Assembly (NCBI RefSeq): GCF_017875325.1 | Contig: NZ_JAGGMN010000001.1 | Span: 1,756,140-1,820,139, forward strand | Length of the DNA: 64,000 nt | Reading direction: 5' to 3' | DNA from: Methanofollis sp. W23 | Lineage (GTDB): Archaea; Halobacteriota; Methanomicrobia; Methanomicrobiales; Methanofollaceae | Shown: piece by piece, positions 4,149-60,526 of the stretch | Layout: the number at the start of each line of letters is the position of its first letter | How positions within the stretch are numbered: position 1 is the first letter of the stretch | The notes under the pieces: model-generated | The model's database searches: none | Seen by the model: the letters and a program-made list of their open reading frames with translations, nothing else | What the model was told of the DNA's origin: nothing | Program-made: the position numbers and the translations under genes

Positions 4149-4361
4149 GGCTCTGTAGAATTCTTCACTTCCTCTCGGTGCAAGGGTACCTCAATCGCCT
4201 TCCGACACAATCACGCCTCCAGGGCCACGATGGGGGCGGGAAGGCACTATCAATGATCATGAAGAGGGGATTGCTGTTCTCTGCCTATCCTCATGCGGGG
4301 GGTTCGGGGGGCGGCCAGCCCCCCGTCGAAGAGAACCATCAAGAGGGTTTCTCCAGAGTCC
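4149..4361. mobile_element. MITE-like element, type A (213 bp)
   Basis: Left end GGCTCTGTAGAATTCTTC, right end GAGGGTTTCTCCAGAGTC. The interior (TTCCTCTCGGTGCAAGGGT, then a GGGCGGGAAGGCA block and a GGGGGGCGGCCAGCCCCCC hairpin) matches the copies at 5203, 19029 and 35261 in the same orientation. No clear target duplication. Confidence 0.7.
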
Positions 4362-4439: not shown

Positions 4440-5183
4440 ATGGCGCGTCTTACCTGGGAGACAAGGCTCGGGATCTTTCTGGTCCTGGCAAGTGTTGCGA
4501 TCTACACGGCAAAATTCCTCGTCCTCGGCACCCCTGAGAACACCTACTACTACATCTTCAATGCCCTGGGGTTCCTCCCGATCAATGTCCTGCTCGTCAC
4601 GCTCATCTTAAACCAACTCCTCACCGTGCGGGCACGGCGGGACAAACTCCAGAAACTGAACATGGTCATCGGGACTTTCTTCTCAGAGGTCGGGACCAGC
4701 CTGCTGGTCAGGCTCTCAGACCGCGACGCCGGTCTTGAAACGATCCGCTGCGACCTCATGGTCAGGGACGACTGGTCCGCGAAGGAGTTCGAGGAGGTGC
4801 GGGCCTGTATGGCCGACCACCCCTACGAGGTGAGAGTGGACGCCGACGAGCTGGACGTGATCCGGAGACTCCTGATCCAGAAGCGCCCCTTCCTCCTGCG
4901 CCTCCTCGAAAACCCGGTACTCCTCGAACACGAACACTTCACCGAAGTGCTGCGGGCGGTCTTCCACCTTGCCGACGAACTCGAACGGCGCGACGACCTT
5001 GCGCACACCCCTGAGACCGACCTCGCCCACCTGAACATCGACGTCAACCGTGCCTACCGCCTCCTGGTCGTCCAGTGGCTCGACTACATGGCATATCTCA
5101 AGGAACACTACCCGTACCTCTTCTCCCTCGCGATGCGGACCAACCCCTTCGACGAGAATGCCTCGCCGGTGGTGCGGGGGTGA
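4440..5183 (+). CDS. membrane-anchored protein of unknown function
   Basis: This encodes 247 residues. Two hydrophobic segments near residues 10-28 (LGIFLVLASVAIYTAKFLVL) and 41-60 (LGFLPINVLLVTLILNQLL) anchor the N terminus; the remaining 185 residues are charged, helical and presumably cytoplasmic (ARRDKLQKLNMVIGTFFSEV onward). No catalytic motif is recognisable. A similar architecture, two membrane helices followed by a helical cytosolic part, occurs in uncharacterised archaeal proteins, but I cannot name a family. It is monocistronic, with repeats on both sides. GGTGAATCAG lies a few bases before the ATG, supporting the start. Confidence 0.8.
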   Translation: MARLTWETRLGIFLVLASVAIYTAKFLVLGTPENTYYYIFNALGFLPINVLLVTLILNQLLTVRARRDKLQKLNMVIGTFFSEVGTSLLVRLSDRDAGLETIRCDLMVRDDWSAKEFEEVRACMADHPYEVRVDADELDVIRRLLIQKRPFLLRLLENPVLLEHEHFTEVLRAVFHLADELERRDDLAHTPETDLAHLNIDVNRAYRLLVVQWLDYMAYLKEHYPYLFSLAMRTNPFDENASPVVRG

Positions 5184-5202
5184 GAAAAAAGTAGGAAAAA
5201 AG

Positions 5203-5435
5203 GGCTCTGTAGAAATCCTCACCAATTCTTGGTGCGAACGCGATTCAACCGCCTTCCTCCATCTTCTCGCCGGGGGCGCTGCCCCCGGACCCCCGGGATG
5301 AAGATAGGGGCGGGAAGGCACAATCAATGGCCATGAAGAGCGCACTGCCATCCCCCGCCTATCGCTCGCACGGGGGAACCGGGGGGCGGCACGCCCCCCG
5401 CCAGAGAGATCCATCCAGAGGATTTCTACAGAGCC
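5203..5435. mobile_element. MITE-like element, type A, intact (233 bp) with perfect ends and target duplication
   Basis: The left end GGCTCTGTAGAAATCCTC (5203-5220) and right end GAGGATTTCTACAGAGCC (5418-5435) are perfect 18-bp inverted repeats. The element is bracketed by GAAAAAAG on both sides (5195-5202 and 5436-5443), a perfect 8-bp direct repeat. The interior has two strong G/C palindromes (around 5271-5290 and 5382-5401) and no open frame of its own. It is the reference copy of the family in this window. Confidence 0.9.
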
Positions 5436-5443
5436 GAAAAAAG

Positions 5444-9674: not shown

Positions 9675-9907
9675 GGCTCTGTAGAAATCCTCTTGATGAA
9701 TCTCTCTGGCGGGGGGCTTGGCCGCCCCCCGAACCCCCCGCGCCACGACAGGTCGAGGACGGCAGCACCCTCTTTATGGTCATCTATTCTGCCTTCCCGA
9801 CCCTATCGTGGTCCCAGGGGTCCGGGGGCAGAGCCCCCGGCCAAAGGGGTAGGAAGGTGGGTGGCACACGTCTCCCCCACACAAGAGGTGAGGGTTTCTA
9901 CAGAGCC
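9675..9907. mobile_element. MITE-like element, type A, complete (233 bp), nested in another copy
   Basis: Left end GGCTCTGTAGAAATCCTC (9675-9692), right end GAGGGTTTCTACAGAGCC (9890-9907). Flanks CGAAGATC and CAAAGATC agree in 7 of 8 bases, a target duplication. The length equals the copy at 5203 but the interior is inverted relative to it. It sits inside repeat-derived sequence, showing successive rounds of insertion. Confidence 0.88.
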
Positions 9908-10195
9908 CAAAGATCAAAGATCCACAGAAGATCGAAGATCTTCCTATCATCAGGAATCTTCGATTCTCTCTGTTCTCAAGCTCCTTCCAGTCGCATCCCC
10001 CGGATCCCCGGAATGAAGATAGGGCAGGGAAGGCAGAGAGTCTGATTGTTCAGAAGGCGGTTTTGTTCTCCGCATGTCAGGTATGAGAGAAATCTGTCTG
10101 TTCAAGTTCTCATCCATACCTCCAGAATTGAACGTCCGGATCATTTCCCATCCCGTATGCGTGAACCCAGGGTTCATGCTCGATTTTACAGATCC
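9908..10195. repeat. remnant of a type B element
   Basis: TTTCCCATCCCGTATGCGTG, then AACCCAGGGTTCATGCTCG and GATTTTACAGATCC at 10148-10195, is the right end of the type B element (compare 60290-60346). No gene seen in the 280 bp before it. Confidence 0.6.
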
Positions 10196-13200: not shown

Positions 13201-13540
13201 GGTCGTAACGGCTCTCCGAGGGGGCGGGATTGAAGGCCGAGGTGGTCTGCACCTCGCTCTCTTCAGGCCAGGCAACGGTCACCGGCGAGGGGATCTCGCC
13301 GCAGAGTGCGTCGGTGGGGTCGCCTTCTTCGATCGGGGCGGCGGCCGACATCATCATGCGTTCGGTCGGGGCCTCTTTCTCCTCAAGATATTGTACAAAC
13401 TCAGGGTTGAGCGGTGCCTCGGTCACCTCCAGTGCGGAGGCCGCCGGGGCCGCGACCCAGAGAAGGAGACAGGCGCAGAGGAATGCGCCTGCCAGACCTT
13501 TCAGTATGTTGAAATTCATGTCTCCAGCCACCTGTCTCAT
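10217..13540 (-). CDS. exported papain-family (C1A) cysteine peptidase with cohesin-like and PGF-pre-PGF domains
   Basis: A 1107-residue surface protein. After a signal peptide (to about residue 37) comes a papain domain with oxyanion Q126, catalytic C132 in GHCGSCWSF, H268 in GGGHAVLIVGW and N298 in VRNSWN. A beta-rich region follows, then a cohesin-like domain (about 500-620, starting KLSFSTDQASLNSGDETEVA). A proline linker of 9-residue TPEPTPEPT-type repeats (about 857-892) precedes a PGF-pre-PGF-like domain (about 920-1055) and a C-terminal hydrophobic helix with ARKH tail, the layout of proteins anchored by archaeosortase-type processing. The first ATG overlaps the stop of the upstream gene; M8 (13519), preceded by AGGTGG at good spacing, may be the true start. 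Confidence 0.9.
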   Translation of the reverse strand: MRQVAGDMNFNILKGLAGAFLCACLLLWVAAPAASALEVTEAPLNPEFVQYLEEKEAPTERMMMSAAAPIEEGDPTDALCGEIPSPVTVAWPEESEVQTTSAFNPAPSESRYDLRDEGRVGSVKDQGHCGSCWSFAAMGSLESTLLPGEVWDFSENNLKNTHGLDYTYKEGGNAYMATAYFSRWSGPVNESDDPYREASGVSPTGLTVQKHVQDVDFLPKRTERANVTLIKQAVKEHGGVYSSMYWSNGFYDEEHASYYDPWLVGGGHAVLIVGWDDTYSKDNFTFTPPGDGAFIVRNSWNADWGDDGYFYQSYYDADRGCKAVFTAEDTDNYRDVYYHDPLGWTSALGLGSETAYAANVFTATSGNSLGAVGFFTPAPNAAYEVSVYVDPTDGPISADGPVTTISGTQVLPGYHTHPLTTPVPLVPGQTFSVVMKLTTPNYYQPLAVERPIAGFSTGAEASAGESYISADGVEWEDLTVNAPNTNVCLKAYTVYEEPKLSFSTDQASLNSGDETEVAITMSRAPWGLAGYEMDVSVADPEIATVTGASFPAWATLNLSRETDGGLMMRAVDLEDAVRAGDEDVVLGTVRVKALIGGSSDLQIAVRQIDADGGDLVTTRANTSSVKVTPAGETEQVEKVNLDVPGCTFDGENVSVEASGDVQISEDRKGITLHQGSFDLIIGTAGEVTEEDGVINATVESILLQTRSLAVRSDETGEVHGSVMADLDSMPEGAAVTTALRIRASGDAMKGFEDAAAENGLTIDALAAALQVQTTGLTDGEEITSATVLIRAPTAWVEAHGGAENVTIVRYGDDGTTAFLQTHVQGTEGGMTTFAAVSPEGFCEFGLVAVSAIPVTPTPEPTTPEPTPEPTTPEPTPEPTTPEPTPEPTTPEPTSAPVSSSNGGGGRSSTSVGTAGTLEAGENVTLTMNGNMPVTEVALTADEAVGDLMVIIERASMPAEYEGEVYACMEASLRHVPAERVKDVTMHFGVPTSWLKEHECTAEDVVMLRYDGTAWETLKTTVLGEEYGQALFSAETDGFSTFAIAVGTTASAAHGAEENVTPTVTQTVTVTEPEETATPAQTPTQKAPLPLWPALVAAGAAALLARKH
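10866..10973 (-). repeat. 27-bp tandem repeat, 4 copies, in the peptidase linker
   Basis: GGTTCAGGAGTCGTGGGCTC recurs at 10866, 10893, 10920 and 10947, a period of 27 bp coding nine residues of Thr/Pro/Glu linker per unit. The first copies are almost identical, so the number is likely to vary between strains. Confidence 0.85.
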
Positions 13541-16500
13541 ATGGTGTCGGTCTCCATGGCGCGGTAGACCGTCACGACGTCGTCGAAGTCGGTCCGGCCG
13601 TTGCCATTGTAGTCAAAGACCCGCGGGTTCTTCTGCGAGAAGATGCTCTCGAAGTGTTCGAAGTAGACCCTGACATCGTCGGTGTCCAGGGTACCGTCGC
13701 CGTTCACGTCCTCGAAGAGGCCGTCGCCGTCACGGTCGCCAGGGTTGTAGGTGCACCCAGGGAAGGGCGAAAGTCCGACGACGTCGATGGCGCCCGGCTT
13801 ACAGACCACGGCGGTCTCTTCACCGGCGTCGGTATAGATGACGACCTCGCTGGCCTCTATCCCGCTCATACCGTCGGTGAGGCCCTTGACCTTCAGGGTG
13901 GCGAGGACGACGTTCTCCGCGCCCGCCTCGACGGTGTTGCCGTCGTCGGTCGCGTCGAAGGTGATGGTGGTGCCGGGCACGCCTGACCACCCGGATGCGC
14001 CCGCCAGGAAGGCAAAGTCAACGCCGGTGATCAGGGCGTTCGTGCCCTCAAGGCTGACCGTGAGGCTGACATTCTTCAGGCCGTCAGGGAGATGGTCGGC
14101 GACGATGGCGACCTCACGCTCGGTGCCGGCGGCGACCGTCGCCGTGGCCGGCGCAAACGAGATCACCGGGGCGATGTTGGTGAGGGTGACATTGTCGAGC
14201 CATCCGCAGTCCTCGCCCGCGGCATCGTCGTATGAACGCTTCTCGTACATCCACCGCAGGGTGTGCTCGCCCTTCGCCAGGGTGTACTTCGCGGGCTGCA
14301 GACCCTCGCCGGTGCCGGCGATCTCGTCCTGCACTTCGCCATCGATGGAGAAGGAAAGGGTGTCTGAAAACTTCATCGAGAAGCCCTCATAGGAAGAGAT
14401 CCCCCAGTCGAAGGTGAGGTTCTTGGGACCGGTGACCGTGGTCTCGATCCAGGTCTGCTGGTTGCGGTCGATCGCGCCGCTCTGTCCACCGCTCCCGCCG
14501 GTGAAGGATTTGTTCAGCTGGACAAACCATGGGGCGTCGCCGCCGGTCGTCCAGACGAGGTCTTCGGCGTCGAGGGCCTCTTCGAAGATCGGGGTGACGG
14601 TGATGTAGCCGTTCTTGACCTCGATCTGGCCTTCAGGGGCGGTGTCCTTCTGCACGATGAGGGTGACATTGTAGACGCCTGGCGTGGTGTAGGTGTGCGT
14701 CTGGTTCCTGCCGACCGCCGACTCCTTGTCGCCGAAGTCCCAGGCCCAGTGGGTCGGGTTCCCGGTCGAATATCCGGTGAAGTCCACGGTGAGCGGGACC
14801 TCGCCCCAGGTGACGTTGCCGACGAAGTCGGTGTCGTCGATCCTGGTGAAGGTGACATTGTCGACCCAGCCGCAGTCCTCCATCATACCCTCACCAGAAC
14901 CCTTCTCATACACCCACCTGACGGCGTGCGTGCCGAACCCCAGCCTGTACTCTTCCTCGGACCAGTTCTTGGGGAAACTGCAGATTTTCTTCTCCTCTTC
15001 ACCGTCAATGAGGAACCTCAGGTAGTCGTAACTGGGTTCAGAGGAGACATTCCAGGCAAAGGTGAGGTAGCCGGGCCCGGTGATGTTCGCCTGGAGCCAG
15101 GACTCCTGGTTGCTGCCGATGACACCGCTCCGTGCCGAGGTGGTGCCGGTGTGGACGCAGTCGACGTCGACGAACCATGGGGCGTTGCCGCCGGTGGTCC
15201 ACTCGAGGTCAGGGGCCTCGACGGCCTCTGGGAGGGTGGCGAAGGGGACAACCGCAATAGTCTGCGTCGTGCTGCTGGTGCCGGCGTCGTTGGTGACCGT
15301 CAGGCTGACCGGATACTCCCCGACCTCCTCGTAGGTGTGGGTCGGGTGCCGCTCGTCAGAGGTCGCACCGTCGCCGAAGTCCCAGGACCATGCGGTCGGG
15401 CACCCTGCAGAGGTGTCGTTGAACTGCACCGTCGCCGGGGCCATCGCCCGCGTCACATTGACCTCGAAGGCGGCCGTCGGCTTGATGGCGCCTTCGGTGT
15501 AGGTGACATTGTCGAGGTGACCGCAGTCGCCCTCTCCATACCGGTGTTCGTTGGTGTAGGTCCACCTGAGGGCGTGTTCGCCGGGCGGAACCTCGTAGTA
15601 GACGCCAGGCCAGTACTTGCCCTCCTGGGTCCCCTTGATATGAGACACATCGGTCCCGTCGGCCGAGAAATTCAGGAGTCCGCTGTAGATAAAGGCCGTG
15701 GCATTGATGTTCCAGTTGAAGGTGAGCACGCCAGGACCTTTGACCGTGGCCTCGATCCAGGTGGCGTTGTCTTCTGAAGAGATGACGCCGCTCCTCACGG
15801 AACTCCCGCCTGTCAGGGCGCAGTAGAGGTCGGTGAACCAGTCGGCGTCGCCGCCGGTCGTCCAGGTAAGGCCAGGGGCCTCGACGGCCTCGCCGAGCGA
15901 GATGGGCTCGACGACCTTCACCGTCTTTGTCACGGTGTCGGTGCCAAAGACGTCATTCCCGTCGGCATCTCTGCCAGCGATGTTGGTGACCGTCAGACTG
16001 ACCTGATACTCGCCGGTATTCTCATAGACATGGACCGGCCGCTCGGCCGCACTCGGCGCCGAACCGTCGCCAAAGTCCCACTCCCATTTTATTGGGTATC
16101 CAGTGGAGTTGTCGGCAAACTGCACGGCCAGGGGCGCCATGCCGCGGTACTCGGTCACATTGGTGACGAAGTCCGCGACCGGGTCGCCGCCGCCGTAGGT
16201 GTAGGTGACATTGTCGAGCCACCCGCCGTTCTCCTCGGACTCGGTCATGAACGTGGAGTAGGCCCAGGTGAGGGCGTGGGTGCCGTGGCCGATGTGGTAG
16301 GTCTCATGGCGCCAATCCCTGTCGTGCTGGATCTTCTCATAGAGGTCGTCGTACTGGTCGGCGTCGTCGACCACGAACTCCATCTTGCCCATCGGCATCC
16401 CGGAGACCCTGCCCGGGTTCACCTTCCAGTCAAAGGAAAGGATACAGGGACCGTCGACGCTGGTCCTGACCCAGGAGTTCTCACCATATTCCAGCGCACC

Positions 16501-18669
16501 GGCACTCTTGCCGGCGCAGGCACCGACATACTCGGGGCCCTTCACGACCGACCAGGTGGCATTGCCGCCGGTGGTCCACGCAAGGTCAGGGGCGTCGAGG
16601 GCCTCTGGAAGGGTGACCTCGCCGACCGAATGGATGTAATCGGTCTTTGTCTCGGTCTCCTCCACGCCGTCTCTGGTGACGGTCAGGGAGACGTCGTAGG
16701 TACCAGGCGCAAAGGTGTGAACTGGATTTTTCTCATCAGAGGTCGTGCCGTCGCCGAAGTCCCAGTGCCAGGCGGTGATCGCCCCGGTGCTCTGGTCGGT
16801 GAACTGCACGCTGAGCGGGGCTTCGCCGCCGGTGGTGTTGGCGGTGAAGGCAGTGGCGATATGCTGAGTGTAGGAGACGTTGTCGAGCCAGCCGCAGTCT
16901 TCGCCCTCAGGCTCATCAGTGAACCGGAAGTAACACCACTTGAAGGTGTGCGTGCCAGGGGCGATCTCAGCGGTACACTCCTCCCAGGCGTGGTCTGTGC
17001 CGTTGATGCTGGAAATGACATTCTTGTCTTCATCAATTGCGAAATAATAGTATTCCTCAGTGTTGGAGGAGACATTCCACCAGAAGGTGATGGTGCCCGG
17101 ACCGGTGACGCTGGTGAGGAGATCTGATTCCTGGCAACGGTATTCAAGCGGACCGCTCCGTGCGCACCCGCCGCCTTTCACGCCGTTCTCGGTGTCGATG
17201 GTCCACTCAGATGCACCGGCGGAGGCCCACTCAAGGTTCGGAGCGTCGAGGGCCTCTTTGAGGCTGGTGGGCGCGGACACGGTCTCCGGGGTGAAGACGA
17301 CATGGTCGAGCCATCCGCAGTCTTCGCCGGCACAATCACCGCTCATGTCGAGGTAGGTCCACCGCAGGGCGTGTTCGCCCTCGCCGATCGCAAAGGACTC
17401 ACTCGTCCAGGTGTAGTCCTCGCCGGCGATGTTCTTCTGAGTCTCGCCGTCGATGGTGAACCTGAGGAGGTCAGAAGAGTAGGGGTCGTTGAGGTCGTCG
17501 CTCTCGTCGTAGTATGACGAGACATTCCAGGCAAAGTTCAGGGTGCCAGGGCCGGTGACCGTGGTCTCGATCCAGGAGCCGTCAGAGCCGTAGAGGGCCT
17601 CGCCGCTCCTGGCGCAGCTGCCACCGACGCCGTTTCCTACCTCGACGACCCAATTGTCGTCGCCGCCGGTGGTCCATTCGAGTTCAGCGGCGTCGAGGGC
17701 CTCGCCCAGGGTGGGCTCTGGGGGCTCTGGCGGTTGTGTGGAGGCGAAGGTGACGTTGTCGAGCCATCCGCCATTCTCGGGTTTGTCGCTCATCTTGGCC
17801 GAGTAGGTCCACCGCAGGGTGTGCTCGCCCTCACCGAGGTCGAAAGACTCATGGGCCCAGTCGCTGGTCGCCTTGATGATCTTGTAGTCCTCGTCAGAAG
17901 AAGTGGCACCGTCGATGGAGAACTCCAGGCTGCCCTGTGAAGAGAAGATGTTCTGGATGTTCGCCTTCCAGTCGAAGGAGAGGGTGCCAGGCCCGGTGAC
18001 GCTGGTCTCGATCCAGGTGGACTTGGAACTGGAGAGTGCACCACTCCTGGCACTGTTCCCGTCGGTCACTCCGTCCTGAATATCCACGCTCCAGTTTGCG
18101 TCGCCGCCGGTGGTCCAGGTAAGTTCAGGAGCGTCGAGGGCGTCACCAAGGGGAGGTTTTTCAGGCGCTTCTCCGGGTGTGAAGGAGACGGCGTCGAGCC
18201 AGCCGCAGTTCTCGCCTGCTGAACCCATTTTATGGAAGTGCCACTTGAGCTCGTGCTCGCCTTCTGGAACAAAAACCGACTCCTCTTTCCAGGAGTTCTC
18301 TGTCCCGGCAATCGTCTTCAGATCTGCCCCATCAAGGGCAAAGCTCAGCGAACTGCTATCTGAGCAAGAAGCATCCCAGGAGAAGGAAAGAGTGCCAGGA
18401 CCAGTAATAGTGGTCTTGATCTCAGAGTCTCCAATGAACCCAGAAAGTTCACCACTCCGGGCAGAACTTCCGCCTTTCACGGCGTGTTCGGTATCGACCG
18501 TCCAATCGACATTGTTGCCGGTCGTCCATACAAGGTCAGGGGCGTCGACCGCCGCCCCGAGGCCCGTGTCCTCTGCAGCCGCGGGCATGACCATCACACA
18601 GAAGAGGAGGAGGATGGCCACGGCCATGGCGGCCGCGTGAGTATATGTGTCTTGTTGACTTCGGTACAT
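13537..18669 (-). CDS. giant exported repeat protein with PKD, cohesin and dockerin domains
   Basis: This encodes 1710 residues with a signal peptide ending near VMPAAAED (about 33). Eight copies of a jelly-roll-like module of about 140 residues follow, each with a WTTGG-like motif (W48, 185, 332, 481, 698, 936, 1157, 1373), then SARSG, VTGPGTLSF.W, GEHTLRW and DCGWLDNVT. Four PKD domains (WDFGDG motifs) stand after modules 4 to 7. A cohesin-like domain (about 1500-1625, from ISFAPATATVAAGTEREVAI) and a dockerin with two calcium loops (DRDGDGLFEDVNGDGTLDTD and DYNGNGRTDFDD) close the protein. No C-terminal anchor is seen, so attachment probably runs through the dockerin. Its stop overlaps the start of the peptidase gene by 4 bp. 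It is likely a cell-surface adhesin or scaffold; ligands are unknown. Confidence 0.9.
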   Translation of the reverse strand: MYRSQQDTYTHAAAMAVAILLLFCVMVMPAAAEDTGLGAAVDAPDLVWTTGNNVDWTVDTEHAVKGGSSARSGELSGFIGDSEIKTTITGPGTLSFSWDASCSDSSSLSFALDGADLKTIAGTENSWKEESVFVPEGEHELKWHFHKMGSAGENCGWLDAVSFTPGEAPEKPPLGDALDAPELTWTTGGDANWSVDIQDGVTDGNSARSGALSSSKSTWIETSVTGPGTLSFDWKANIQNIFSSQGSLEFSIDGATSSDEDYKIIKATSDWAHESFDLGEGEHTLRWTYSAKMSDKPENGGWLDNVTFASTQPPEPPEPTLGEALDAAELEWTTGGDDNWVVEVGNGVGGSCARSGEALYGSDGSWIETTVTGPGTLNFAWNVSSYYDESDDLNDPYSSDLLRFTIDGETQKNIAGEDYTWTSESFAIGEGEHALRWTYLDMSGDCAGEDCGWLDHVVFTPETVSAPTSLKEALDAPNLEWASAGASEWTIDTENGVKGGGCARSGPLEYRCQESDLLTSVTGPGTITFWWNVSSNTEEYYYFAIDEDKNVISSINGTDHAWEECTAEIAPGTHTFKWCYFRFTDEPEGEDCGWLDNVSYTQHIATAFTANTTGGEAPLSVQFTDQSTGAITAWHWDFGDGTTSDEKNPVHTFAPGTYDVSLTVTRDGVEETETKTDYIHSVGEVTLPEALDAPDLAWTTGGNATWSVVKGPEYVGACAGKSAGALEYGENSWVRTSVDGPCILSFDWKVNPGRVSGMPMGKMEFVVDDADQYDDLYEKIQHDRDWRHETYHIGHGTHALTWAYSTFMTESEENGGWLDNVTYTYGGGDPVADFVTNVTEYRGMAPLAVQFADNSTGYPIKWEWDFGDGSAPSAAERPVHVYENTGEYQVSLTVTNIAGRDADGNDVFGTDTVTKTVKVVEPISLGEAVEAPGLTWTTGGDADWFTDLYCALTGGSSVRSGVISSEDNATWIEATVKGPGVLTFNWNINATAFIYSGLLNFSADGTDVSHIKGTQEGKYWPGVYYEVPPGEHALRWTYTNEHRYGEGDCGHLDNVTYTEGAIKPTAAFEVNVTRAMAPATVQFNDTSAGCPTAWSWDFGDGATSDERHPTHTYEEVGEYPVSLTVTNDAGTSSTTQTIAVVPFATLPEAVEAPDLEWTTGGNAPWFVDVDCVHTGTTSARSGVIGSNQESWLQANITGPGYLTFAWNVSSEPSYDYLRFLIDGEEEKKICSFPKNWSEEEYRLGFGTHAVRWVYEKGSGEGMMEDCGWVDNVTFTRIDDTDFVGNVTWGEVPLTVDFTGYSTGNPTHWAWDFGDKESAVGRNQTHTYTTPGVYNVTLIVQKDTAPEGQIEVKNGYITVTPIFEEALDAEDLVWTTGGDAPWFVQLNKSFTGGSGGQSGAIDRNQQTWIETTVTGPKNLTFDWGISSYEGFSMKFSDTLSFSIDGEVQDEIAGTGEGLQPAKYTLAKGEHTLRWMYEKRSYDDAAGEDCGWLDNVTLTNIAPVISFAPATATVAAGTEREVAIVADHLPDGLKNVSLTVSLEGTNALITGVDFAFLAGASGWSGVPGTTITFDATDDGNTVEAGAENVVLATLKVKGLTDGMSGIEASEVVIYTDAGEETAVVCKPGAIDVVGLSPFPGCTYNPGDRDGDGLFEDVNGDGTLDTDDVRVYFEHFESIFSQKNPRVFDYNGNGRTDFDDVVTVYRAMETDTI

Positions 18670-19028: not shown

Positions 19029-19664
19029 GGCTTTGTAGAACCCCTCACTTCTTCTCGGTGCAAGGGTGACTCAATCGCCTTCCCACACAATCACACCGGG
19101 GGCGCGGCTCCCTCGGACCTCCAGGACCACGATGAGGTCAGGAAGGCACAAAAAATGACCATAAAGAGGGGATTGCCGTCCACGACCTATCGTGGCGCGG
19201 GGGGTGCGGGAGGCGGCGAGCCCCCCATCGAAGAGAACTATCAAGAGGGTTTACCATGAAAATGATCCTGACGATTATCTTTCCAGGTTTGCATGAGAAT
19301 TTGAACCAGCCATATCTCGTTGAAGATGATATGCAGATTACAGAGTCGTCTTCAGCATGATCGGCGTTCTGCCTTCCCACCTCTATCGCCATCCTGGGGG
19401 TTCCGGGGGCGCGGCGCCCGGCATGGCGGTGCGGGAAGGCACGTCGATCCGATGTGCCGCCCCCCATCGTCGAATCTTCACCGCCATCTCGCACCGGGGG
19501 GGCGTGCCGCTCCCCGGACCCCCCACGGACCGAAGAGTGGTGGGGGCGGCGATGGAATACGATCCCACCCCGATTCTCCTCTCTTAAAAAGAGAGAGAGC
19601 AGGTGACGAAAAATTTTCATCCCATATGCATGAGCCAGAGGGTCATGCCCGATTCTACAGAGCC
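19029..19664. mobile_element. compound MITE-like element, types A+B (636 bp)
   Basis: It starts with the left end GGCTTTGTAGAACCCCTC and ends with GATTCTACAGAGCC. The first 225 bp match type A, whose right end breaks off at GAGGGTTT and passes into ACCATGAAAATGATCCTGA, the start of the type B part (about 409 bp with two G/C palindromes and GAGCAGGTGACGAAAAATTT near the end). The compound copy at 35261-35896 has exactly the same length and order. No open frame of significance. Confidence 0.8.
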
Positions 19665-26649: not shown

Positions 26650-26887
26650 GAGGAGGGCTGGAGAGTTTTGGATGACCTCATGGAGAGAATTTGTGTCATC
26701 CGCCTTCCTATGGTCTCTCGCCGGAGGCAGAGCCCCCAGACCCTCCCGGGACCACGATAGGACCGGGAAGGCAAAATCGATGACCATGACAAGGATGCTG
26801 CCGTCTTCGACCTCTCGTGACGCGTGGGGTTCAGGGGGCGGCACGCCTCTCGCCAGAGAGAGAGATCAAGAGGATTTCTACAGGACC
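26650..26887. mobile_element. MITE-like element, type A, left end degraded
   Basis: The right end GAGGATTTCTACAGGACC (26870-26887) is clear, and the interior follows the order of the 5203 copy (CGCCGGAGGCAGAGCCCCCA, GGGAAGGCAAAATCGATGAC, GGGGGCGGCACGCCTCTCGC). The left end near 26655 (GGAGAGTTTTGG) is hardly recognisable. Confidence 0.65.
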
Positions 26888-35260: not shown

Positions 35261-35896
35261 GGCTCTGTAGAAATCCTCCCTTTCTTCTGGTTCGAGTATG
35301 ATTCACCCGCCTTCACCTATGAACACGCCGGGGGCGAGTGTCCCCGGACCCCCGGGGACCACGATTGGGTCGGGAAGGCAGAATAGATACATGATAAAGG
35401 GGCTGCCGTCCTCGACCTATCGTGTGGCAGGGGGACCAGGGGGCGGCACGCCCCCCATCAGAGATGGCCATCCCAGGCATTTACCATGAAAATGATCCTG
35501 ATGTTCGGCTCTCCATATTTGCATGAGGGCCTGATCTCACCAGGCCCCCTTATGACTGATTCCCAGAGGACAGATACACTCACTCTCAGAACGATTCGTC
35601 CTCTGCCTTCCCCGCACAATCGCAATCCCGGGGGTCCGGGCGGCAATCGCCCCCGGCCGAGGGTGTGGGAAGGCACGTCGATCTGATCGGCCGCCCTCAG
35701 TCATAGAATCTTCACCGCCGTCTCACGCCGGGGGGTTTCACCCCCCGGACCCCCCACGGACCGAAGATAGCCGAGGGGCGGCGAAGTGAACACGATCCCC
35801 CCCGATTCTCCTATCTTGAAAAAAGAGAGAGCACGTGATGAGAAATTTTCATCCTGTATGCTTGAGCCTCGGGTTCATGCCGAATTCTCCAGAGCT
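35261..35896. mobile_element. compound MITE-like element, types A+B (636 bp)
   Basis: Left end GGCTCTGTAGAAATCCTC (35261-35278), right end GAATTCTCCAGAGCTC. The order and length are the same as the copy at 19029-19664, including the A-to-B junction TTTACCATGAAAATGATCCT near 35480. G/C palindromes lie at about 35331-35350, 35441-35460, 35630-35660 and 35725-35755. No gene seen. Confidence 0.8.
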
Positions 35897-53007: not shown

Positions 53008-53238
53008 GGCTTTGTAGAAAACCTCTTGTTGAACATCTCTGCGGGGGGCTCGCCGCCCCCCGGTCCCCCCGTGCGAAGAGAGGCGAGGGACGGCATTACA
53101 CTCTTCATGGCGATTGATTTTGCCTTCCCGACCCTATCTTCATCCCGGGGGTCCGGGGGCAGAGTCCCCGGCGAGAAGATGAGGGAAGGCGGTTGAATCA
53201 CGCTCGCACCAAGAATAGGTGAGGGTTTCTACAGGGCC
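53008..53238. mobile_element. MITE-like element, type A, complete (231 bp) with perfect target duplication
   Basis: Left end GGCTTTGTAGAAAACCTC (53008-53025), right end GAGGGTTTCTACAGGGCC (53221-53238). GATTTTTT stands on both sides (53000-53007 and 53239-53246), a perfect 8-bp direct repeat. The interior is the reverse complement of the 5203 copy with about 80 percent or more visible identity. Confidence 0.9.
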
Positions 53239-58225: not shown

Positions 58226-58340
58226 ATTCTACCTCACATTGACCAGAGTAAGTCCAGAAAAGAGCAGTATTGCTACTGACCTCTCTGTAATCCCGAGCCA
58301 CTTTGGGCCGTGTCATGGGACACGTCGGACTTACGTCAGC

Positions 58341-58370
58341 CAGCACCGTTCAGTGCTGTATATAAAATGC
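58341..58370 (-). promoter_or_regulatory. rps15 promoter with hairpin at the transcript start
   Basis: The minus strand reads GCATTTTATATACAGCAC: a TATA box followed at once by CAGCAC-TGAACG-GTGCTG, a 6-bp stem (58341-58358). The remaining leader to the ATG has no other gene and might serve autogenous control. Confidence 0.5.
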
Positions 58371-58542: not shown

Positions 58543-58860
58543 TACCTGTTTTCAGAGCGCGGTTCTTTCTCAAGTCGTAAGATCGAAAGTTCTCTCGCGA
58601 CTGGGGGTCGCGCCCACAGGAAAAACGATCTCTGGCGCTGAGGAGTGTCTCACGACAGATCGAACGGAGGTGACAGCCTTTTCTTCGCATGTTTTCCAAC
58701 CAGATCCTCCTCTTCATCCTGGAATCAGGCCGTCTTTCCATGATGGGACGGGGGGGATGGCTGTCTCGATCAGTAGCATCTCACGTTGGCAGGGATTGAC
58801 CACCCGCCCCTCAAGATCGCCTACAAAGAGAAGCAGTGGATTTGCACCTCTCTTTTCATG
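58543..58860. other. gene-free stretch after tRNA-Gly, nothing certain
   Basis: About 320 bp with no supported gene; no tRNA 3'-end duplication indicating an integrated element was noticed. Confidence 0.4.
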
Positions 58861-59092
58861 GGCTCTGTAGAGAGCCTCACTTGTTGTGGGGGGATGTGTG
58901 TCATCCGCCTTTCCATAGTCCCTTGCGGGAGTTGCGGCCCCCCCAGATCCATTTTGAGCAATGATGAGACAGAGAAGGCTGAATAGACGACTATGAAGAG
59001 GGGAACTTCTTTCCTTCCTCTAAATTATGTGGTGAGGGGTTCGGGGAGCGGTCAGCCCCACAGTCAAGGATTTTTGAATGTCCTCTGCAGGA
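58861..59092. mobile_element. MITE-like element, type A, right end degraded (about 232 bp)
   Basis: Left end GGCTCTGTAGAGAGCCTC (58861-58878). The interior follows the 5203 orientation. The expected right end near 59080-59092 (GTCCTCTGCAGGAG) is barely recognisable, so this is an older copy. Confidence 0.6.
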
Positions 59093-59154
59093 GAAGAAAT
59101 AGAATGTCGGCCTTGGTATGGGGGATACGGTGGGGACACGAGATTAAAAGCAAA

Positions 59155-59168
59155 TGGATATATTAATC
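59155..59168 (+). promoter_or_regulatory. promoter of the AT-rich nuclease-like gene
   Basis: ATGGATATATTAAT acts as TATA; transcription would begin near 59190, so the ATG at 59196 rather than the one at 59154 is the start. Confidence 0.55.
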
Positions 59169-59195
59169 CTACCCAATGTATTTTTTGTAGATAAT

Positions 59196-59669
59196 ATGGA
59201 TCATAAAGATATTAAAAGGAAACTCTGCTATGCATTGCTAAAATTTGCAGAGAATGATGCAGAACTCATAGACCTCGAAGTAAGTGAATGGGCAGTAACT
59301 CACCAGATCGCTTGCTATCTCAAAGAACCGTTTTCTGATTGGGATGTCGATTGCGAATACAACCGTAAGAAATTAGATGTCAAGAAGGATAAGTCGGATC
59401 GGAATAAAAGACCAGACATTGTTGTGCATCATAGAAACACGAATCACAATCTGCTCATAATTGAAGTAAAAAAGAGCGGAGAGAATACTGAAGATGATGA
59501 TAAAGAATTAAAAGAATTCACTGATAAATCCGGAAACTATGGATATGATTTTGGGATTCAATTGATTATACCGAGAAAAAACAAACCAGACCCAGACACA
59601 ATGAACCTCAGTTTGAGATGGTATGAAAACGGGGACCATAATGCTAAGAGAGACATTCTGCGGATTTAA
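59196..59669 (+). CDS. PD-(D/E)XK nuclease-like protein, AT-rich, probably acquired
   Basis: This encodes 157 residues with many Lys, Asn and Ile codons ending in A/T, unlike all neighbours. KRPDIVVHHRNTNHNLLIIE followed by VKK holds D74, E90 and K92 in the spacing of a PD-(D/E)XK catalytic core, as in restriction enzymes and related nucleases. EWAVTHQIACYLKEPFSDWD precedes it. No methyltransferase, toxin partner or integrase gene lies nearby. It may be an orphan of a defence or mobile element, or a stand-alone protein of a restriction-endonuclease-like DUF family. Flanking repeats on both sides support insertion history. Confidence 0.75.
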   Translation: MDHKDIKRKLCYALLKFAENDAELIDLEVSEWAVTHQIACYLKEPFSDWDVDCEYNRKKLDVKKDKSDRNKRPDIVVHHRNTNHNLLIIEVKKSGENTEDDDKELKEFTDKSGNYGYDFGIQLIIPRKNKPDPDTMNLSLRWYENGDHNAKRDILRI

Positions 59670-59682
59670 AATCATACCCCAG

Positions 59683-59938
59683 GGGCATATCCCAGAACTC
59701 TCATGGGGTGAAGATCCCCTCGAACCGAAGTGCTTCCTTTCAGAAATTCTATACCCTCTCTTCCACCCGCCAGGGGGCGTGGCGCACCCCAAAACCCCCC
59801 ACGACGAGGAGAGGGGAGGGGCGGCAAAGCGAACACGGTCGCCGCCGATTCTTCTGTCGTGATATGAGACAGCAAGTGACAATAAATTTTCATCCAGTAT
59901 GCGTGAGATGTGCTCTCGCCTCATGAGCAATTACTACG
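59683..59938. repeat. intergenic repeat, type C
   Basis: GGGGCATATCCCAGAACTCT, CGAAGTGCTTCCTTTCAGAA, a GGGGGCGTGGCGCACCCC palindrome, and ATTTTCATCCAGTATGCGTG near the end. The right end stops at CAATTACTAC and passes straight into the type B element. Confidence 0.6.
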
Positions 59939-60346
59939 AATGAAAATGATCCTGAAGATCCTCTCTTTCGGTTTGCACGAAAATTTAAACTCGCCATATC
60001 CTGTTGAAGTTGATATGCGGAGAATAGAAATTTCTGCAGAGCGATCGGCCCTCTGCCTTCCTGGTCCTATCTTCATCCCGGGGGTTCGGGCGGCACTCGC
60101 CCCCGGCGCAAGTGTGCGGGAAGGCATGTCGATCAGAAAAGCCGCGCCCCCAATTGTAGAATCTTCCCTGCCTTCTCGCGCCGGGGGGTTGCACCCCCCG
60201 GACCCCCTACGGGCCGAAGATAGGTGGAGGTGACGATTGCGCGAGGTGCCCATCGATTCTTCGGTCTTGAAAATCAGTGATCAAGCAACGAGAAATTTTC
60301 ATCACGTATGCTTGAACCCAGGGTTCATGAGCAATTCAACAGAGCC
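59939..60346. mobile_element. type B element (408 bp)
   Basis: It begins AATGAAAATGATCCTGAAGA and ends GCAATTCAACAGAGCC. Its length and order agree with the B parts at 19256-19664 and 35483-35896, including the palindromes near 60078-60105 and 60180-60200. Confidence 0.7.
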
Positions 60347-60526
60347 GTTCTTTCCCACGTCGCAAGATCAAGAGTGCTCTCCCGGCCCCGACAGAGAGGG
60401 TCACACTCGCATCGGCCACTCCCCTGCCCCCGGACCCCATCAAGAGGGATCACTACACGGTCTCCCTCTCTTCTTCTCCTGGACCAGACCATGTGATATA
60501 ATTCTATAGAGCACAGAACCCTCTCC
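60347..60526. other. short gene-free stretch
   Basis: 180 bp; a TATA-like ATGTGATATAATTC near 60489-60502 likely serves the CGGC gene. Confidence 0.4.

Follow-up and report, generated by a model that had tools for sequence, protein, structure and literature searches.

What are the short repeats that recur throughout the genome of the methanogen Methanofollis sp. W23, and which transposase could have dispersed them? The question is raised by a 64,000-nucleotide stretch of this genome (the window, to which coordinates without a prefix refer), in which an initial annotation had recognized non-autonomous MITEs and proposed that they derive from IS6 elements. The copies, and the modules associated with them, are placed in the window as follows.

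2021-2198, - strand: shorter MITE copy, 178 bp; duplication CTTCACCC/CTTCATCC
4149-4360, + strand: MITE copy, 212 bp, with paired ends; no 8-bp duplication (5/8 mismatched)
5195-5202, no strand: left 8-bp target duplication of the 5203 copy, GAAAAAAG
5203-5435, + strand: reference MITE copy, 233 bp; both 18-bp ends identical to GGCTCTGTAGAAATCCTC, perfect inverted ends
5436-5443, no strand: right 8-bp target duplication of the 5203 copy, GAAAAAAG
9675-9907, - strand: MITE copy, 233 bp; duplication CGAAGATC/CAAAGATC
19029-19664, + strand: 636-bp mosaic of a MITE with a truncated right end and a ~410-bp module; no duplication
26692-26887, + strand: MITE-related copy in which one end is recognisable; over 193 bp it is ~81% identical to 9675-9907
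35261-35896, + strand: second 636-bp mosaic, 73% identical to 19029-19664; no duplication
53008-53238, - strand: MITE copy, 231 bp, in the opposite orientation to the 5203 copy; duplication GATTTTTT/GATTTTTT
59940-60346, + strand: the ~410-bp module alone, without the MITE half

The window also contains features of a different kind. A 1710-aa, secreted-looking protein with four PKD domains is encoded at 13537-18669, and its C-terminus shows a weak dockerin match that falls below the Pfam cut-off. An S15-Methanomicrobia ribosomal protein leader (Rfam RF03137) lies on the minus strand at 58287-58357. Directly after tRNA-Gly(CCC), ~1.9 kb (58543-60471) occupies a place that measures 54 bp in the sister genome G001 and ~60 bp in G004 and G005; this segment contains repeats and an A/T-rich 171-aa ORF (59154-59669) that has no Pfam match.

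A large family of short inverted-repeat elements

The four copies named in the initial annotation (5203-5435, 53008-53238, 9675-9907 and 2021-2198) are present at those positions with the flanks it gave. Its description of the 18-bp ends as perfect holds for the 5203 copy and has to be relaxed for the other three, in which each end has 0-2 mismatches to GGCTCTGTAGAAATCCTC, and its figure of at least fifteen ends proves conservative, as 23 matches to GGCTCTGTAGAAATCCTC were counted in the window (≤3 mismatches, both strands) when 0.02 are expected from shuffles. Ten of these 23 ends form five pairs with a spacing of 178-233 bp; the remainder stand singly, form the ends of longer mosaics, or come from truncated copies.

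The same end is abundant in the host genome (G000; 2,907,262 bases in 2 contigs, 99.7% complete), where it has 391 matches (184 forward and 207 reverse, ≤2 mismatches) and where the reversed pattern, used as a control, has 0 in either direction. A genome-wide search with the 233-bp 5203 copy returned at least 57 BLAST matches, a lower bound for which 40 of 639 candidates were scored; all copy counts from BLAST searches with this sequence are likewise lower bounds, part of the candidates being scored. Because the copies measure ~230 bp, they have no room for a transposase ORF. This short dispersed repeat, with its many copies and terminal inverted repeats, is a real and large MITE family, of which no description was found in open-licence papers.

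Duplicated and unoccupied targets

Target duplication was analyzed in the available host sequences for 37 distinct pairs of ends with a spacing of 120-300 bp. At a length of 8 bp, the two flanks were identical in 14 of the 37 pairs and differed by one mismatch in another 8, so that 22/37 agreed at 7-8 positions, as against 15/1328 when the left flank of one element was combined with the right flank of another. Mean flank agreement was 0.71 at length 8 compared with 0.24-0.40 at lengths 4-7 and 9-13, and the duplication is therefore of fixed length, exactly 8 bp, in agreement with the value first read from the four named copies. The remaining 15 end pairs lack a duplication, as would be anticipated where ends are old, have recombined or were paired wrongly. 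The interior of the 22 duplicated targets is rich in A and T, and their outer positions are often G or C, with a rough consensus of GAWWWWTC.

A comparison of empty sites, which the initial annotation had also suggested, was made by joining the flanks of 24 duplication-bearing elements (≤1 mismatch) with a single 8-bp copy between them and searching the available host and relative sequences. An uninterrupted counterpart carrying the 8 bp once was found for 3 of the 24. The first, L129:9326-9556 (duplication GAAATTTT), lies within a repeat module, intact copies of which in G004 and G010 carry GAAATTTT once; when the orthologous site of G004 and G005 is compared, alignment of the right flank resumes at the first or second base past the element. 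For the second, at locus L007 (GGAAGATC), an unoccupied relative with GGAAGATC once was found at about 9917-9964 of the window, with 6 of 48 bases different. The third, L027:2277-2400 (GATCCAGC), has several intact relatives of its target. Single 8-bp targets thus came to light in these three cases, but no base-exact empty site was obtained in sister species for eight others, namely the window copies at 4149, 5203, 9675 and 53008 and the elements at L129:2676, L129:12602, L128:8561 and L128:12843, because their flanks had diverged or been rearranged. In orthologous intergenic regions, G004 has ~12, 330 and 32 bp where the host has ~519, 792 and 699 bp, mostly repeats.

The same repeats could also be read as sequences kept for a function of their own, such as a structured RNA, a terminator or a DNA hairpin, with mobility being secondary. 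In this regard, the 5203 copy folds better than its shuffles (z -6.9 as RNA and -6.4 as DNA), and conservation is higher in the 18-bp ends (0.91/0.94) than in the interior (0.84). However, the fold of the 5203 copy is owed largely to the inverted ends themselves and to G/C-rich palindromes, a consensus fold of 28 copies shows negligible covariation (a term of -0.29 kcal/mol, with a double change in 3 of 19 pairs), no Rfam match falls within the repeats, and many of the MITE insertions are absent from sister genomes. A conserved RNA structure is therefore unsupported, and retention for such a function is very unlikely to explain the family.

Full-length relatives with an IS5-family transposase

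Candidates for the element that moved these MITEs were sought with the 18-bp end in 61 genomes (the host and 60 relatives), 36 of which contain a match. In G044 (L038/L062), the ends GGCTCTGTTGAATTCCTC and GGCTCTGTTGAAACCCTC delimit an element of 1010 bp that is bordered on both sides by the duplication CAAGCATC and contains a minus-strand ORF of 288 aa. The protein scores 231 bits against NF033579 'IS5 family transposase', above the curated cut-off of 140, and 78 bits against PF01609. When it was aligned with the homologous proteins of G003 (79% identical) and G005 (71% identical), D117, D190 and E246, as well as Y239-R242-E246-K253, were invariant in all three; we take these residues to be the IS4/IS5 DDE and Y-(2)-R-(3)-E-(6)-K signatures.

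A match to the G044 protein at E≤1e-5 was found in 21 of the 61 genomes. Named genomes that carry the transposase include Methanomicrobiaceae, Methanogenium and Methanoculleus, and these, together with the S15-Methanomicrobia leader in the window, place the host in this group of methanogens. Further elements whose ends match and whose 8-bp duplications are perfect occur in G003 (two, GTGCATAT and CATCGAAC), G005 (GAACAATC), G020 (two, GATTAACC and GGTATTCT), G032 (GAAATTAT) and the Methanomicrobiaceae MAG JAHKLN010000059.1 (GCAATTTC), and a perfect duplication, TAATTCCA, borders an end pairing of 1121 bp in G018. Several other full-length transposase loci have the ends without a duplication, matching ends were not found at L153 and L160, and L063, at a contig end, was left out of this check. 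Relatives in the host's genus and order thus carry an autonomous partner, and none was found in the host genome itself.

Most full-length elements measure 978-1014 bp and encode one ~288-aa DDE transposase. These lengths and the 8-bp duplication agree with the IS5/ISH1 row of PMC6352166 (900-1150 bp, 8-bp duplication), so the parent group is provisionally placed, by length and duplication alone, in the ISH1 subgroup of IS5; like IS5/ISH1, it has a transposase above the NF033579 cut-off, and unlike IS5/ISH1, the window elements carry no transposase.

Beyond these genomes, all plasmid matches to the transposase are below 60% identity. They include WP_015313961.1, an IS5 family transposase on plasmid pMETHO01 of Methanomethylovorans hollandica (NC_019972.1), which is 54.8% identical and lies between ends GGCTCTGTAGAAAACCTA / GGCTTTGTAGAAATGCTC that are 1001 bp apart; unlike the present family, this copy lacks a target duplication (flanks AAAATTCG / GTAAATTC). 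Haloarchaeal plasmid IS5 matches are only ~29-34% identical, and no relatives were found in viral contigs or phages.

Probable assignment of the MITEs to IS5 rather than IS6

The initial annotation was borne out in describing non-autonomous elements with terminal inverted repeats and 8-bp duplications that depend on a transposase encoded elsewhere; it is the derivation from IS6 that fails. In the excerpt of PMC6807381 used here, IS6/IS26 elements have GG at positions 1-2 and G at position 7 of their ends, with 8-bp duplications where recorded, and the present MITEs share both properties. In contrast, PF13610 has 0 matches in the host genome, although it matched 5 of the 14 known genomes used as a control, and the transposases found between matching ends, some of them bordered by the 8-bp duplications described above, are IS5 by profile. 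An NCBIfam scan of the transposase (E≤0.1) likewise returned models for IS5, IS1182, IS4, ISNCY and IS982 and none for IS6. The full-length elements, at ~1 kb with 288-aa proteins, also differ from archaeal IS6 elements, for which the same excerpt gives 696-778 bp and 211-231 aa (PMC6807381). The missing profile, the IS5 identity of the transposase and the mismatch in size rule against an IS6 origin, so movement of these MITEs by an IS6-family transposase is extremely improbable, and the IS6 label, being largely refuted, should be dropped. The IS6-like ends and the 8-bp duplication are real, but they are shared with the present IS5 group and are non-diagnostic.

The MITEs and their putative partners were also compared directly by aligning seven window elements with 15 full-length or nearly full-length IS elements (BLASTN). 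Among the matches listed (all of those for the 5203 copy and most of those for 9675), similarity was convincing only over the terminal 17-19 bp, rarely over 20-25. Because only these ~17-19 bp are shared, the link between MITE and IS5 elements is drawn from the ends, the duplication length and the co-occurrence of the two in the order. It could therefore be argued that the mover was a different DDE transposase that makes 8-bp duplications (such as ISL3, IS1595 or IS256) and that the resemblance to IS5 ends is coincidental, as the host genome has no IS5 parent and MITE and IS5 have the ends alone in common. This is unlikely, given that IS5 elements from the order, some of them from the genus itself, are identical to the MITEs at 17-18 of 18 end bases and in duplication length.

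Comparison of these sequences makes it highly probable that an IS5-family (ISH1-like) DDE transposase moved the ~230-bp MITEs in trans through shared ends, with duplication of 8 bp. Such an enzyme would recognize the ~18-bp ends GGCTCTGTAGAAAYCCTC in trans, mobilize non-autonomous pieces of ~230 bp, and insert them at short A/T-rich targets (rough consensus G-A-W-W-W-W-T-C), 8 bp of which would be copied. By this account the mover was presumably the IS5-type transposase itself and not another enzyme that acts on the same ends.

Apparent loss of the parent and age of the family

Searches of the host genome found no match to the NF033579 profile and none to the IS5-type transposase protein at E≤1e-5. 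PF01609 has one match, C1:20983-21840 (L031), which lies outside the window and is broken by one TGA; as a source of the MITEs it was rejected, since matching ends are absent from the locus. The window and two host stretches of 20 kb yielded no transposase-bearing copy, and together with the absence of PF13610 these searches are consistent with the earlier statement that the window contains no transposase gene. Where ends stand 700-1700 bp apart, a single large ORF lies between them, 4440-5183. This too was rejected as a transposase: it has no Pfam match, and its DNA is conserved in sister genomes that have no MITEs there, which marks it as a host gene.

The sister genome G001 has 566 end matches, and the transposase is absent from it both by protein and by NF033579, an absence that may reflect a gap in the assembly (81% complete, 360 contigs). 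The same-genus genomes G003 and G005 have full-length open transposase copies, yet only 6 and 77 end matches, and transposase fragments are found in G004, G008 and G009. Among 28 aligned host copies, the closest pair is 92% identical, mean identity is 77% and mean divergence from the consensus is 15%; a closest pair at 92% in this sample makes a recent burst less likely. From this 28-copy sample, and from the lack of a detectable transposase in the two end-richest genomes, the family looks old and orphaned in the host. The parent appears to have been lost from the host lineage, in which the MITEs are probably now inactive.

Two window loci bear on the age of individual insertions. The 5203 insertion is common to the host and G001, in an aligned 3.2 kb that is 90% identical, and so predates the split between them. 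The MITE at 4149-4360 has a counterpart in G001 (L123) that occupies roughly the same intergenic position but is oriented the other way, and the right flanks of the two differ, as would be seen at a hot spot or after an inversion.

The 233-bp interior has a narrower distribution than the ends. It was found in 11 of the 12 genomes of the genus (all but G006), with a marginal match in G043 (8.3e-4) and none in the others among the 61, indicating that the ends are widespread in the order and that the interior belongs to the genus.

Mosaic copies

In the mosaics at 19029-19664 and 35261-35896, a MITE that lacks its outer ~10 bp is joined to the ~410-bp module, which has GGCTCTGTAGAATYSGGC or a variant of this sequence as its outer end. 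In the first of these, the MITE passes into the module at ...AAGAGGGTTTACCATGAAAATGATCC, and the module's outer end is GGCTCTGTAGAATCGGGC. The junction of TTTTCATGGT to AAACCC occurs at 8 places in the host sequences examined (≤2 mismatches; loci not de-duplicated) and also in G010, G047 and G005, in the last of which (L065:1336-1410) it stands at the end of an element whose IS5 transposase is intact. Both 636-bp mosaics lack a duplication. At L003:1456-1721, a module end and a MITE end are bordered by a perfect 8-bp duplication, GATTTTTG, which indicates that this chimera of the two ends moved.

It is conceivable, if somewhat doubtful, that this is a modular family evolving by end swapping, in which the module repeatedly replaced the outer ~10 bp of a MITE or IS end at a fixed junction and the mosaics remained mobile. 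If so, the fixed junction would be a recurrent, perhaps transposase-made, point of end exchange and not the trace of one inherited event.

Relationship to other archaeal elements and implications

Archaeal MITEs often share with an autonomous IS the inverted repeats alone (<20 nt), as described in part of Kamoun et al. (2013, PMC3852290). The present family resembles those elements in being short and ORF-less, with ends of less than ~20 nt shared with an IS and an unrelated interior, and the same text pairs several archaeal MITEs with IS5 elements in methanogens. It differs from them in having no partner in the host, and in its duplication of 8 bp, a length given for none of the IS5 entries in the table passage of that paper. 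Mosaic non-autonomous elements are also known among the Tn3-derived TIMEs treated in the excerpt of PMC4133298; unlike these members of the Tn3 family, the present mosaics have IS5-type ends. To a moderate degree, the family is set apart by its high copy number, its orphan status, and mosaic copies in which one end is replaced by a second module.

With this analysis, one of the main dispersed repeats of the host is assigned to an IS family, and a wrong label is removed. The 391 ends in the 2.9-Mb host and the 566 in its sister G001 are far above the 2-34 copies per family in the archaeal MITE table passage of PMC3852290. Since the host and its sister species differ mostly by repeats in the orthologous intergenic regions compared, the family has reshaped these regions. 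In addition, because the two end-richest genomes have no matching transposase, they offer a natural case in which to ask how MITE bursts arise and how they stop after the parent is lost.
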